Source: an uncultured Spirochaetales bacterium (GTDB lineage: Bacteria; Spirochaetota; Spirochaetia; Sphaerochaetales; Sphaerochaetaceae). From it: a DNA stretch of 36,572 nucleotides. This document shows, piece after piece, positions 5,965 to 29,602 of the stretch; the first letter of the stretch is position 1, and every line of letters starts with the position of its first letter. The notes beneath the pieces are model-generated. The model did no database searches, had not been told where the DNA came from, and saw only the letters and a list, made by a program, of their open reading frames with translations. The stretch covers positions 1-36,572 of the forward strand of contig CASFMA010000031.1 in the NCBI GenBank assembly GCA_949295675.1. Direction: 5' to 3'. The position numbers were made by a program, and so were the translations under genes.

Positions 5965-6380
5965 CTACATGCAGCAGTCAGTATCATCATGTTTATTTGA
6001 AGCAAAATAATGAAATTCCGCATGAAAAGATTCAAATTCGATAGAGTTTTTTCAAATATCGGCACAAAAGAATTAAATTTCATGGAATTTATTGAAATAT
6101 TCAAAAAAAGAATCAAATTTACAATTGAAGTCTTTTTGAATCAAATAAATTATCAACATGAGAATCAATATGACTTCCACAGAATTGGTCAATCTTGTCT
6201 AAGAGAGAAAGGAACGCCTGCAAAGCTGTACGATACTCTCTCATGCTTCCCAAATCAGGATAAAGGCGGTACGGATAGATGAGAAGGAAAATCCGCTCAT
6301 CATGGCAGGGAGCATAAGGATGACTCGTCCGGACAAGCCAGGAAGCAGGTATCAGAAATACTATACCCCAAAGGAGTGAT
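5965..6380. other. AT-rich intergenic stretch without a recognisable gene
   Basis: About 415 bases separate the SNF2 start from the regulatory region of the first pspA. The first half is far more AT-rich than the rest of the window and holds three degenerate 40-base repeats (listed separately). An open frame of 90 codons (6010-6282, plus) begins in the repeat area, but it has no ribosome site, Phe/Lys/Ile-rich low-complexity content and no family I recognise. I do not call it. The second half (about 6180-6380) has normal composition and only tiny open frames. It may be a decayed gene or simple spacer. Confidence 0.5.
6025..6145. repeat. Three degenerate ~40-bp AT-rich direct repeats
   Basis: The 15-mer AAAAGAWTYAAATTY occurs at 6025, 6066 and 6106, i.e. 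at intervals of 41 and 40 bases. The sequence after each copy is partly conserved too (TTT..TTgAAATATy in the first two). An interval near four helical turns puts the A-tracts on the same face of the helix, which could bend the DNA. Function unknown. Confidence 0.55.
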
Positions 6381-6417
6381 TGGTATTTACCGCCATATTA
6401 TATGGTACATATTGCCA
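6381..6417 (+). promoter_or_regulatory. Tandem upstream activator sites for the PspF-like regulator (first pspA)
   Basis: Two 15-base imperfect inverted repeats, TGGTATTTACCGCCA (6381-6395) and TGGTACATATTGCCA (6403-6417), start 22 bases apart, about two helical turns. The first matches 11 of 15 bases of the element before the second pspA (8074-8088). They lie 33-69 bases upstream of the -24 box, a normal place for enhancer sites. Binding by the adjacent regulator is inferred. Confidence 0.5.
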
Positions 6418-6449
6418 ATATCACCTGAATGATATCCGTTTATGGCCTT

Positions 6450-6465
6450 TGGCATGGAAATTGCT
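6450..6465 (+). promoter_or_regulatory. Sigma-54 (-24/-12) promoter of the first pspA
   Basis: TGGCATGGAAATTGCT has the invariant GG and GC exactly ten bases apart and close to the TGGCAYR-N4-TTGCW consensus. The expected start is about 6476, giving a leader of only about twelve bases that begins with the CAGGAG ribosome site. Confidence 0.8.
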
Positions 6466-6487
6466 TCAAGGCAGTCAGGAGCAAACT

Positions 6488-7123
6488 ATGGGAATATTCA
6501 CGAAAATGAAGGATATCGTGGCATCTAACATAAACGCCGCGCTCGACAAGGCGGAAGATCCACGGAAGATGATTGACCTCTCGCTCAGGAAGCTCGAGAA
6601 GGCCTCCGCAGACATAAGGTCATCCATTGAGAGGAAAACAGCCGAGAAGAGAGACGCACAAGAGCGCATAGCTGAGGAGAAAGCCGCGCTTGAGCGCTGG
6701 ACAGAAAGGGCAAGGAAAGCCGCAGCATGCGGCAAGGATGAGCTTGCACGCGAAGCGATACGGGAAAAGAGGGAGATCGAAAGAAAGATAAAAGCTGACG
6801 AGTACACAGTCTCATCGCTGTCTTCGATAATACCGACGCTTGAAAGCACGCTGAGGAAGACAGAGGAGAAGCTTGAAGAACTTTCAGCAAAGGCCGAAGG
6901 ACTCAAGGCAAGGGCTGAGAGCGCGAGGATCAAGGAGAAGGCAGGGGAAAGCATGCGCGACTGGGAAAGGCGGATCGAGGAGATGGAAGCAAGGCTCGGC
7001 AGATGGGAGGACTCCTTAAGAAGCTCCCAGACCAGGGACCGTTTTGAGGATGAGGAAATAGAGAGCGAGCTTGAGAGACTCAGGAAGGAAGCCGGTCCCT
7101 CAGCTTCCGATAAAGACCTCTGA
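6488..7123 (+). CDS. pspA: PspA/IM30 family phage-shock protein (first copy)
   Basis: The 211-residue protein opens with the family hallmark MGIFTKMKDIV followed by NINAALDKAEDPRKMI, an amphipathic helix that binds stressed membranes, and continues as a long Lys/Glu-rich coiled coil (about residues 25-200). PspA/IM30/Vipp1 proteins are ESCRT-III-like and assemble into rods that protect or repair the inner membrane; enterobacterial PspA also inhibits the activator PspF. Length is close to E. coli PspA (222). I choose the ATG at 6488 because AGGAG stands seven bases upstream and the longer open frame adds an unrelated 36-residue head. A sigma-54 promoter lies immediately upstream. The 3' end overlaps the convergent regulator gene by 44 bases. 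Confidence 0.9.
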   Translation: MGIFTKMKDIVASNINAALDKAEDPRKMIDLSLRKLEKASADIRSSIERKTAEKRDAQERIAEEKAALERWTERARKAAACGKDELAREAIREKREIERKIKADEYTVSSLSSIIPTLESTLRKTEEKLEELSAKAEGLKARAESARIKEKAGESMRDWERRIEEMEARLGRWEDSLRSSQTRDRFEDEEIESELERLRKEAGPSASDKDL

Positions 7124-8054
7124 ACTGATCGTAAGTAAGGCTTAATAATTCAGCAGCCCTCCTTTGATTGCCTCCCGCATCATCGAGGGCCTTTTTCAGA
7201 TATTTCAAATCAATTTCTTCATGTATATAGGGATATCTTTCAAGATCAATCGTATTGGAAGGCTTTTCAGAGGGCTTTTCGAATGGATTCCTGAATGGCT
7301 CCGTCTCTATATCATCAATAAGGCCTCCCTCACATCTGTAGACAGCTCTCTCGACCGTATTCTTCAGCTCCCTTATATTCCCCGGCCATGAGTATGACAG
7401 CAGCTTCTTCTCCGCCCTGGGCGAAAAATACGGCACATCAGGATAGCCGCATTCCTCCGCCATGTTGGTTGCGAAATAGTTTGCAAGGAGCATTATATCA
7501 CCCGTACGGGCACGCAGCGGCGGAACGAATATGACCTCGAACGACAGCCTGTCCAGAAGATCCTCCTTGAACCTGCCCTCGCGCGCAAGCTCTGGCAGAT
7601 CCGCATTCGTCGCAGCGACTATCCTGACATCCGCATACCGCGTCTCAGACGATCCGATACGCTCGAATGTGCCATACTCAACCGTGCGCAGTATCTTCTC
7701 CTGCACCTCAAGCGGCACCAGCCCTATCTCATCAAGGAACAAAGTCCCTCCCTCAGCCTCTTCAAAGCGCCCCTTCCTCGCACTGACGGCACCTGTGAAC
7801 GCCCCCTTCTCATACCCGAACAGCTCAGCCTCGACCAATGTCGGAGGCAGCGATGCCAGGCTTACGGCGACAAGCGGGCCTTCCCATCTTCCTGAAAGGA
7901 AATGGAGGCGGCGAGCAGCAAGCTCCTTCCCCGTTCCCCTCTCCCCGACGAATATGACAGGACGGTCAACCTTGGCAGCCTGCGCCACGCGATGCTGGAA
8001 ATCAAGATAGATGCCGCACTCACCTATTCCTTCCCTGTAAAGTATCCTAGACAT
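7080..8054 (-). CDS. pspF: PspF-like sigma-54 enhancer-binding activator
   Basis: The 324-residue protein starts directly with the AAA+ sigma-54 activator domain: Walker A GERGTGKE at 37-44, the sigma-54-contacting GAFTGA loop at 84-89, Walker B LFLDEI at 105-110 and the SWPGNIRELKN motif. The C-terminus (about 285-324, GGNQRRAAELLSLTYDQFRGLY) is a Fis-type helix-turn-helix. There is no N-terminal sensory domain. That layout and length match E. coli PspF (325 residues), which is controlled by PspA binding rather than by phosphorylation. It sits between two pspA genes, each with a sigma-54 promoter, so they are its obvious targets. Its ATG is preceded by TGGTAAAAT and a six-base gap (leaderless), and one activator site overlaps the region upstream of that -10, which suggests autorepression. 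Confidence 0.88.
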   Translation of the reverse strand: MSRILYREGIGECGIYLDFQHRVAQAAKVDRPVIFVGERGTGKELAARRLHFLSGRWEGPLVAVSLASLPPTLVEAELFGYEKGAFTGAVSARKGRFEEAEGGTLFLDEIGLVPLEVQEKILRTVEYGTFERIGSSETRYADVRIVAATNADLPELAREGRFKEDLLDRLSFEVIFVPPLRARTGDIMLLANYFATNMAEECGYPDVPYFSPRAEKKLLSYSWPGNIRELKNTVERAVYRCEGGLIDDIETEPFRNPFEKPSEKPSNTIDLERYPYIHEEIDLKYLKKALDDAGGNQRRAAELLSLTYDQFRGLYRKLRDRLPS

Positions 8055-8060
8055 AGGCTT

Positions 8061-8069
8061 ATTTTACCA
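8061..8069 (-). promoter_or_regulatory. Extended -10 promoter of the PspF-like gene, leaderless arrangement
   Basis: TGGTAAAAT on the minus strand, then six bases (AAGCCT) and the ATG at 8054. It has the TGn extension but no clear -35. The same nine bases and the same gap precede the ROK gene at 33214. Confidence 0.5.
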
Positions 8070-8073
8070 TATC

Positions 8074-8088
8074 TGGCATTATTCGCCA
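8074..8088. promoter_or_regulatory. Activator site shared by the second pspA and the pspF-like gene
   Basis: TGGCATTATTCGCCA is an inverted repeat (TGGC/GCCA) matching 11 of 15 bases of the site at 6381. It lies 34 bases upstream of the -24 box of the second pspA and just upstream of the -10 of the pspF-like gene, so one protein could activate the first and repress the second. Confidence 0.5.
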
Positions 8089-8122
8089 TAATAGAATTCG
8101 AATATTCCACCCCATCGCCACT

Positions 8123-8138
8123 TGGCACTGTTCCTGCA
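8123..8138 (+). promoter_or_regulatory. Sigma-54 (-24/-12) promoter of the second pspA operon
   Basis: TGGCACTGTTCCTGCA keeps GG and GC ten bases apart; the -12 box is CTGCA instead of TTGCA. The predicted start, about 8149, falls on the first base of AAGGAG, giving a twelve-base leader. Confidence 0.75.
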
Positions 8139-8160
8139 TGTTATCGGTAAGGAGCTGATA

Positions 8161-8775
8161 ATGAATATATTTTCAAGATTCATTGATATAGTGAACGCGA
8201 ATATAAACGCGATGCTGGACAAGGCTGAGGATCCTGAGAAGATGCTTCGCCTGATGATCCAGGAGATGGAGGATACGGCAATAGAGCTGAAAAGCAGCTG
8301 TGCCTCTGACATGGCGGCCCAGCTGTCCTTCGAGAAAAGAGCTGAAGAGGCTGCTGCGGGCGAGAAGCGCTGGGAAGAGAGAGCCCGCCTTGCCGTGAGC
8401 AAGGGGAAGGATGATCTTGCCCGTGAGGCGATAGCCGAAAGAAGGGAGATGGAGAGGGAAAGGAAAAGATGCCTTGAAGCTGCGGAGAACCTCAAAGCAG
8501 AGATAGCGAAGGAAAAGGACGAGATCAGCAGGCTCGAGGAAAAGCTTGCAGACTCGAAGAAGAAGCTCAGGGCAATGGCAGAGAGAAACGAGAAGGCAAA
8601 AGCGGAAAGCAAGGCGAAGGAGAGCGAGAGAACGAGCAGGGAACGCCGCTTCGAGGAAATGGAGAGGAAGATAGAGAGAGCGGAAGGCTACCACTCTGCA
8701 GGAAGGGCTTTCGACGATGAGGAAATAGAGAGGGAGCTTGAGGCCCTGAAGAGAGAAGGCAATGGTCAGGACTAG
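8161..8775 (+). CDS. pspA: PspA/IM30 family phage-shock protein (second copy)
   Basis: The 204-residue protein starts MNIFSRFIDIVNANINAML and continues DKAEDPEKML, aligning with the N-terminal amphipathic helix of the first copy, then forms a Lys/Glu-rich coiled coil to the end. The two copies share the N-terminal helix and a C-terminal FDDEEIERELE-like tail (FEDEEIESELE in the first), so they are paralogues rather than fragments. The start at 8161 is chosen because AAGGAG stands six bases upstream and a sigma-54 promoter lies just before it. Its 3' end overlaps pspC by fourteen bases, so pspA2-pspC is one operon. Whether one copy inhibits the activator and the other serves the membrane cannot be told from sequence. 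Confidence 0.9.
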   Translation: MNIFSRFIDIVNANINAMLDKAEDPEKMLRLMIQEMEDTAIELKSSCASDMAAQLSFEKRAEEAAAGEKRWEERARLAVSKGKDDLAREAIAERREMERERKRCLEAAENLKAEIAKEKDEISRLEEKLADSKKKLRAMAERNEKAKAESKAKESERTSRERRFEEMERKIERAEGYHSAGRAFDDEEIERELEALKREGNGQD

Positions 8776-29264: not shown

Positions 29265-29354
29265 CATGAAAGAATTTGCACACTGTTACATTTTTTCACA
29301 GCTAAAATTACATGATAGTGACAAAACAGCGTCAAAACTGCGCAGAACAGGAGT

Positions 29355-29370
29355 TGGCACGCTTCTTGCT
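29355..29370 (+). promoter_or_regulatory. Sigma-54 (-24/-12) promoter of predicted sRNA 1
   Basis: TGGCACGCTTCTTGCT matches the TGGCACG-N4-TTGCW consensus at every fixed base, with GG and GC ten bases apart. The expected start is 29381. Upstream, CAAAACAGCG and CAAAACTGCG (29322 and 29333, eleven bases apart) and a CTGT/ACAG inverted repeat at 29282-29301 could bind the activator. They do not resemble the psp sites. Confidence 0.8.
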
Positions 29371-29380
29371 AATAGAGGAA

Positions 29381-29454
29381 TAGAGCAAACAGTTTTTTCA
29401 ACAAACCTCCTTTTTAGTGTATTCAAAGACAGCCACGTGCTGTCTTTGTTTTTT
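29381..29454 (+). ncRNA. Predicted sigma-54-dependent small RNA 1
   Basis: About 74 bases run from the predicted +1 to the end of a T-run. No ATG and no open frame of note lies inside. The 5' part AGAGCAAACAGTTTTTTCAA is followed by an unpaired ACAAACCTCCTTTTT, which contains the anti-Shine-Dalgarno CCUCC, and then a ten-base-pair terminator stem. A related RNA follows 130 bases downstream. The combination of -24/-12 promoter, short size, C/U-rich seed and intrinsic terminator is what trans-acting sRNAs look like. I do not recognise it as a known family, and expression is unproven. Confidence 0.6.
29424..29454 (+). terminator. Intrinsic terminator of sRNA 1
   Basis: CAAAGACAGC and GCTGTCTTTG form a perfect ten-base-pair stem with the loop CACGT, followed by six T. 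No protein gene precedes it on this strand, so it must end a non-coding transcript. Confidence 0.88.
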
Positions 29455-29484
29455 AATTGAAGTTCCTGTGAAGCATATTAACTT

Positions 29485-29500
29485 TGGCACGGACCTTGTA
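29485..29500 (+). promoter_or_regulatory. Sigma-54 (-24/-12) promoter of predicted sRNA 2
   Basis: TGGCACGGACCTTGTA has a perfect -24 box at correct spacing; the -12 box reads TTGTA, with T for the usual C. Expected start is 29511. It begins 31 bases after the sRNA 1 terminator. Confidence 0.6.
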
Positions 29501-29510
29501 GATATTAAGC

Positions 29511-29602
29511 AAAGAGCAACAGTTTTCACCTCCTTTGCGTGGAAAACATTCGCCGGACGGACTCTCCCACCCCATTTTTCATCCGTCCGGCGTCTTTCTT
29601 TC
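29511..29602 (+). ncRNA. Predicted sigma-54-dependent small RNA 2, paralogue of sRNA 1
   Basis: About 90 bases with no ATG. The 5' end AAAGAGCAACAGTTTTCACC aligns with that of sRNA 1 when both are numbered from their independently predicted starts (AGAGCAA at +2/+3, then CAGTTTT), and CCTCCTTT follows. Here GTTTTC pairs with GAAAAC (29522-29527 with 29542-29547), presenting CUCCUUUGC in a loop. A terminator hairpin with a C-rich loop CUCUCCCACCCC follows. Two C/U-rich unpaired segments suit pairing with ribosome sites, as UCCC-motif sRNAs of staphylococci do. Unproven. Confidence 0.58.
29551..29602 (+). terminator. Intrinsic terminator of sRNA 2
   Basis: CGCCGGACGGA and TCCGTCCGGCG form a perfect eleven-base-pair stem with a 20-base loop, followed by TCTTTCTTTC. 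It ends 28 bases before rlmE and overlaps the region of the rlmE -35. Confidence 0.85.

Follow-up and report, generated by a model that had tools for sequence, protein, structure and literature searches.

Tandem RNA genes with predicted sigma-54 promoters in an uncultured spirochaete, and a conserved arm complementary to the translation starts of exported-protein genes

What is encoded between the minus-strand rhomboid protease gene and rlmE of an uncultured member of the Sphaerochaetaceae, an intergenic region in which no plausible plus-strand gene was found? The window, by which we mean the whole stretch of 36,572 nucleotides that was analysed, is contig C31 of a metagenome-assembled genome of 1.77 Mb that is 78% complete. 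An initial annotation had proposed tandem small RNA (sRNA) genes here, promoted by sigma-54, intrinsically terminated and carrying anti-Shine-Dalgarno segments, and a base-by-base check together with conservation throughout the family bears this out at the sequence level. Two units in the same direction lie between the flanking genes, each made up of a -24/-12 promoter, an RNA gene (~75 nt for RNA1 and ~90 nt for RNA2) and an intrinsic terminator, and it is very likely that the region consists of sigma-54-driven sRNA genes. The predicted features are as follows.

29275 to 29301, plus strand: predicted activator (enhancer) site TTTGCACACTGTTACATTTTTTCACAG, recognised by its conservation across the family and located ~50 nt upstream of the -24 box
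29354 to 29370, plus strand: sigma-54 promoter P1, TTGGCACGCTTCTTGCT, with consensus -24/-12 boxes, independently associated with the RNA arm
29381 to 29454, plus strand: RNA1 (type 1 sRNA), predicted start 29381 +/- 2, conserved in 29 aligned sequences, no Rfam match
29383 to 29412, plus strand: recognition arm of RNA1, GAGCAAACAG-UUUUUUCA-ACAAA-CCUCCUU, nearly invariant, with predicted bipartite pairing to Shine-Dalgarno sequence, start codon and Lys codons
29424 to 29454, plus strand: terminator 1, a covarying stem (29424-29448) and a T-run
29484 to 29500, plus strand: sigma-54 promoter P2, TTGGCACGGACCTTGTA, in which GT replaces GC in the -12 box
29511 to 29602, plus strand: RNA2 (type 2 sRNA), predicted start 29511 +/- 2
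29522 to 29547, plus strand: 5′ hairpin of RNA2 in the MFE fold, also seen in related type-2 RNAs, with the anti-Shine-Dalgarno segment CCUCCUUU (29529-29536) within or beside its loop
29551 to 29602, plus strand: terminator 2, a covarying stem with the invariant C-rich apical loop CUCUCCCACCCC at 29562-29573

Both terminators were found where the initial annotation had placed them, downstream of the -24/-12 promoters. Terminator 2 (stem 29551-29561/29582-29592, a 20-nt loop, then TCTTTCTTTC) was missed by a simple terminator scanner because its loop is too long for that scanner. The alignment of the two 5′ ends was also reproduced (AGAGCAA(A)CAGTTTT ... CCTCCTTT); both RNAs open with (A)GAGCAA(A)CAGUUUU, have CCUCCUU further on and contain no ATG. 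For Sphaerochaeta, the predicted 5′ end lies near (A)CAGAGCAAC and the predicted length is 70-105 nt. The second -12 box does have GT for GC, previously named as the weak part of the claim; GT is also present in the closest relatives (L002 and L003) and, being common to two sister species, does not sink the proposal. Genome-wide, -24/-12 patterns with at most one mismatch occurred 29 times, compared with 4 for the reversed pattern.

The two RNAs represent two types. Type 1 has an unstructured arm, GAGCAAACAGUUUUUUCAACAAACCUCCUUUUUAGUGU, that is nearly invariant across 29 sequences, and type 2, which in most congeners has GAGCAACAGUUUUUCAUACCUCCUUU, forms a hairpin with the anti-Shine-Dalgarno segment at the loop. 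Compensatory changes were observed in 5 of the 9 stem pairs of the type 1 terminator and in 8 of the 17 predicted pairs of type 2, the latter all within the terminator stem; folding z-scores were -2.1 for RNA1 and -3.8 to -5.5 for the other RNAs. The apical loop CUCUCCCACCCC of the type 2 terminator is invariant within the genus, to a degree (29562-29573 and the type-2 relatives) that far exceeds the needs of a terminator loop, and a target search with it showed no enrichment over shuffles. No Rfam 15 family reached its gathering threshold with either RNA and E<=10 yielded chance matches only, in agreement with the earlier remark that the RNAs do not resemble Qrr.

How widely is this arrangement distributed, and is the promoter tied to the RNA? 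A DNA search recovered relatives of the locus in 97 of 139 family genomes, and an RNA-arm pattern that leaves out the promoter matched 108 of 139 Sphaerochaetaceae genomes (0 matches for the reversed control). The promoter-plus-arm pattern was present in 30 of 36 family genomes versus 0 of 357 other Spirochaetota genomes. The 87 elements extracted from family-genome loci form a set selected for having a promoter. For a promoter-independent test, public contigs were retrieved by the RNA arm alone, giving 83 distinct spirochaete matches. A strict TTGGCAY-N5-HTG[C/T] box lay <=40 nt upstream in 77 of these 83 and a near-consensus -24/-12 box in 5 more (82 elements in total), the chance rate of such a box being ~0.0018 per stretch scanned; the remaining match (L064) is not an element but the translation start of a gene in reverse orientation. 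Of the 16 non-spirochaete arm matches, none had a -24/-12 box.

Relatives named in a GTDB scan belong to the Sphaerochaetaceae and to other uncultured Spirochaetales, including Candidatus Ornithospirochaeta; the elements come from gut and environmental spirochaetes of a single family. There are usually two copies in the genus of origin, one in several other genera and four in tandem in one genome, G093. In the latter, the four copies (L033, ~1470-2680) are all of type 2, and each has a promoter, a terminator and an upstream CTGTTACTTTTTTTCACAG-like site. The initial annotation had pointed to relatives that keep the rhomboid-rlmE neighbourhood as the place to look for loss, and throughout most of the family these retain both promoters and terminators, a result that speaks strongly for the proposal. 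The RpoN gene is present in 136 of 139 family genomes, and because nearly all have it, its absence is useless as a test. These observations point to an undescribed and strongly conserved sRNA family that would be transcribed from RpoN-dependent promoters and switched by sigma-54; our literature search found no paper naming both Sphaerochaeta and sRNA.

What might such RNAs recognize? The anti-Shine-Dalgarno segments of the initial annotation are real, yet they make up half of a bipartite arm, in which CCUCC complements the Shine-Dalgarno sequence and UUUUUUCA complements the start codon together with a Lys-Lys codon pair. Read as its reverse complement, the arm gives AAGGAGG, then a short spacer, then (A)UGAAAAAA and CUG, which corresponds to a ribosome-binding site with an initiation codon and a pair of codons for Lys. 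Among the non-spirochaete arm matches, 15 of 16 were gene starts on the opposite strand, with Shine-Dalgarno sequence and ATG at the matching position, and nearly all of these genes begin with MKK and a hydrophobic stretch.

Predicted pairing was compared among 809 genes, of which 76 had a signal peptide, in ~0.8 Mb of sampled stretches (~47% of the source genome), using a crude home-made gene finder, a simple signal-peptide rule and pairing energies without an accessibility term. The mean for RNA1 was -19.6 kcal/mol at signal-peptide starts versus -14.9 kcal/mol at other genes (p 2.5e-14), and this difference of -4.8 kcal/mol compares with -0.8 +/- 0.5 for flank shuffles that keep CCUCCUU (z -7.6). 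For RNA2, the signal-peptide preference over shuffles had a z of -3.3; the linker of type 2 is shorter and its arm lies partly inside a hairpin, which weighs against our preferred explanation. The preference persisted with Shine-Dalgarno strength matched, was lost when UUUUUUCA and GAGCAAACAG were scrambled together or the order of the half-arms was swapped, and recurred in two further genera, with z -5.8 in G093 and, weakly, z -2.2 (p 0.018) in G076. Pairing of the U-run with A-rich Lys codons accounts for much of the preference. The predicted duplexes showed UUUUUUCA-UGAAAAAA and CCUCC-Shine-Dalgarno pairing in ~9 of 10 cases, with the linker opposite the spacer between the Shine-Dalgarno sequence and AUG. 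Signal-peptide genes accounted for 13 of the 30 top RNA1 matches (p 5e-7). Solute-binding proteins, whose mRNAs are targets by predicted pairing, were 9 of 10 annotated top targets as a raw count. Predicted targets include an SBP_bac_5 gene (L308:5506), a DctP gene (L291:18782) and an NMT1 gene (L288:4861). A search of 15 genomes for a long exact target of the arm returned the elements themselves and one MKK gene, and there was no perfect target among the MKK starts listed in two genomes.

We propose the following sequence of events. A sensor kinase would phosphorylate its response regulator, which would bind the 27-bp site at 29275-29301 and open the sigma-54 promoters. In the resulting RNAs, CCUCC would pair with the Shine-Dalgarno sequence of a target mRNA and UUUUUUCA, aided by GAGCAAACAG, with its start codon and the Lys-Lys codons at the beginning of the signal peptide. 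Masking of the Shine-Dalgarno sequence and start codon would block ribosome binding on many exported-protein mRNAs at once, chiefly those of solute-binding proteins. Because the arm is complementary to the gene start signals of exported proteins, the sRNAs probably lower the output of secreted proteins, nutrient-binding ones included. We give a probability of about 0.6 to the reading that RNA1 and RNA2 are two siblings in a family-wide set of putative sigma-54-dependent, Hfq-independent, trans-acting sRNAs that would repress translation of exported proteins, and the same probability to their acting on exported-protein mRNAs in the way proposed.

A bolder form of this reading, that the arm is the complement of a generic signal-peptide-gene translation start and that a single sigma-54-switched RNA holds down a large part of the proteins exported by an Hfq-less host, is tentative and somewhat doubtful. 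The Hfq gene was not found in the source genome and occurs in 1 of 139 family genomes, and this near-absence fits C-rich, Shine-Dalgarno-directed pairing. The one Hfq-bearing genome (G112, L176) may reflect contamination or late acquisition. If class-level recognition were true, a single RNA would be enough for a bacterium without Hfq to lower an entire export class, and sigma-54 would again be linked to the cell exterior (compare PMC3162934). In sRNA biology, Hfq-less spirochaetes represent a gap, and a family-wide sRNA with a conserved sigma-54 promoter, enhancer and terminator is a readily testable regulator.

Alternatively, these could be genuine sigma-54-dependent sRNAs that act specifically on a single target or a few, for instance a regulator or one abundant surface protein; their match to the signal-peptide class would then be a by-product of any RNA with an anti-Shine-Dalgarno segment and a U-run. 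In favor of this possibility, the typical sRNA has few main targets, the arm is more invariant than a class-wide interaction requires, the type 2 C-rich loop is invariant despite its lack of signal-peptide preference, and the preference is weak in G076. However, shuffles that keep the anti-Shine-Dalgarno segment lose the preference, the swap of half-arms abolishes it even though the U-run is kept, and no single target stands out in the sampled stretches. We therefore regard few-target action as unlikely, though a serious contender. The RNAs could also titrate a protein, through the C-rich loop or the anti-Shine-Dalgarno arm, rather than pair with mRNAs. An invariant type 2 loop CUCUCCCACCCC without target enrichment and multicopy tandem arrays such as that of G093 would suit such a sponge, but what all members have in common is the 5′ arm and not the loop, type 1 has no such loop, and the arm is ordered and spaced like a gene start, making titration improbable.

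In most genomes the elements immediately precede rlmE. This suggests a leader or attenuator, in which the RNAs would be a regulatory 5′ segment that stops transcription before it reaches rlmE, and leaders too can have anti-Shine-Dalgarno segments and terminators. This possibility is very remote from what we observe: two complete terminated units stand in series, the folds show no antiterminator pairing, and single copies occur elsewhere. Genome context led us to reject it, since rlmE is convergent in L041 and L095, several genera have no rlmE nearby, and the elements of L038 are 5 kb apart. Last, a minus-strand gene for a small peptide, with the Shine-Dalgarno sequence AAAGGAGG followed by TTG/ATG AAA AAA, is almost certainly wrong even though a good ribosome-binding site and start can be read there, because the U-run varies in length with indels that shift the frame and the minus-strand frames span only 3-48 codons, and, further, the start codon is not conserved and promoter and terminator are both on the plus strand.

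Under our preferred reading of sigma-54-dependent sRNAs that act on exported-protein mRNAs, which protein would open the promoters? The direct repeat CAAAACWGCG at 29322 and 29333, offered earlier as an activator site, is present, but its proposed role did not survive comparison, as the repeat is absent from the closest relatives. The enhancer site listed above has the core TGTKAM-N5-TTCACA, which is conserved upstream of elements across the family; 29275-29301 is the sole perfect match to this core within the sampled stretches, and a joint search for site plus promoter matched 7 of 18 genomes, with every match confined to the sRNA locus. Matches to a second enhancer type, TRTCAAARTGACA, meant to assign the other activator, were too sparse.

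Three sigma-54 activators are encoded in the source genome, one of them a PspF-like protein in the window and the other two response regulators. The PspF-like protein was rejected as the sRNA regulator, as it is absent from three congeners that retain the sRNAs. The only activators found in G131 were the PspF-like one and an orthologue of the response regulator C67:55004. With the PspF class missing in three congeners and the G131 set so limited, the C67 class is the only one common to all ten genomes compared. Thus, by elimination, C67:55004 is most likely the enhancer-binding activator. It is encoded with a solute-binding protein and with a sensor kinase containing a membrane-like hydrophobic stretch, and the sRNAs are probably under two-component system control. 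The sequence-level hallmarks of a sigma-54-dependent sRNA are all found here, namely a promoter at the RNA start, a conserved upstream site, RpoN and an activator gene.

Known sRNA systems offer partial parallels. AbcR1 and AbcR2 of the Rhizobiales are sibling sRNAs, in tandem in some species, that down-regulate ABC-transporter solute-binding proteins (PMC3712013, PMC4211561, PMC5461406). Tandem siblings and short pairing motifs are likenesses to the present RNAs, for which pairing with solute-binding-protein mRNAs is predicted. In contrast, AbcR is alphaproteobacterial and Hfq-stabilised in S. meliloti, whereas the present genomes are essentially without Hfq. One account places AbcR under LysR-type control (LsrB; PMC8844928), which, as far as that account goes, differs from the sigma-54 control predicted here. 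No Rfam 15 model matched RNA1 or RNA2, AbcR (alpha-r15) being covered on the assumption that its model is included in that release. LhrC1-5 of Listeria monocytogenes are multicopy sRNAs with CU-rich motifs that are driven by the two-component system LisRK, do not need Hfq for stability or pairing, and block translation of a cell-wall-associated protein (PMC4132741). The present RNAs are likewise multicopy, CU-rich, putatively Hfq-independent and, given the candidate kinase/regulator pair, perhaps two-component-driven; LhrC differs in belonging to another phylum and in operating without sigma-54. To our knowledge, LhrC has no bipartite start-codon arm. The inducing signal of LhrC is cell-envelope stress. 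Sigma-54-dependent sibling sRNAs are known in Qrr of Vibrio (PMC4211561), which is switched by the response regulator LuxO, and in GlmY/GlmZ of E. coli (PMC3162934, PMC7073468). Their genes are distal to one another, unlike the tandem genes here, and their targets differ; GlmZ needs RapZ, and the present genomes lack Hfq. The Rfam models of Qrr, GlmY/GlmZ and LhrC gave no match to either RNA. By analogy, the RNAs may work like AbcR1/2 or LhrC and be driven like Qrr/GlmY, and they fit none of the sequence definitions of these families.

Other sigma-54 promoters were seen along the way. In the source genome (G000), -24/-12 promoters lie at three Hsp20 genes and at a gene for a sigma-70-family factor (L207, L214, L219 and L208; contigs C5, C26, C67 and C64), and these promoters share an upstream motif close to TGTCAAARTGACA that is different from the sRNA enhancer site; part of the source spirochaete's heat-shock response thus seems to be under sigma-54 control. 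The window also contains a Psp-like locus at 6380-8775, in which the gene for the PspF-type activator (7080-8054, minus strand) is flanked by a coiled-coil PspA-like ORF (6380, plus strand) and a PspA/IM30 gene (8122, plus strand; Pfam match), with near-consensus -24/-12 boxes at ~6449 and ~8122.
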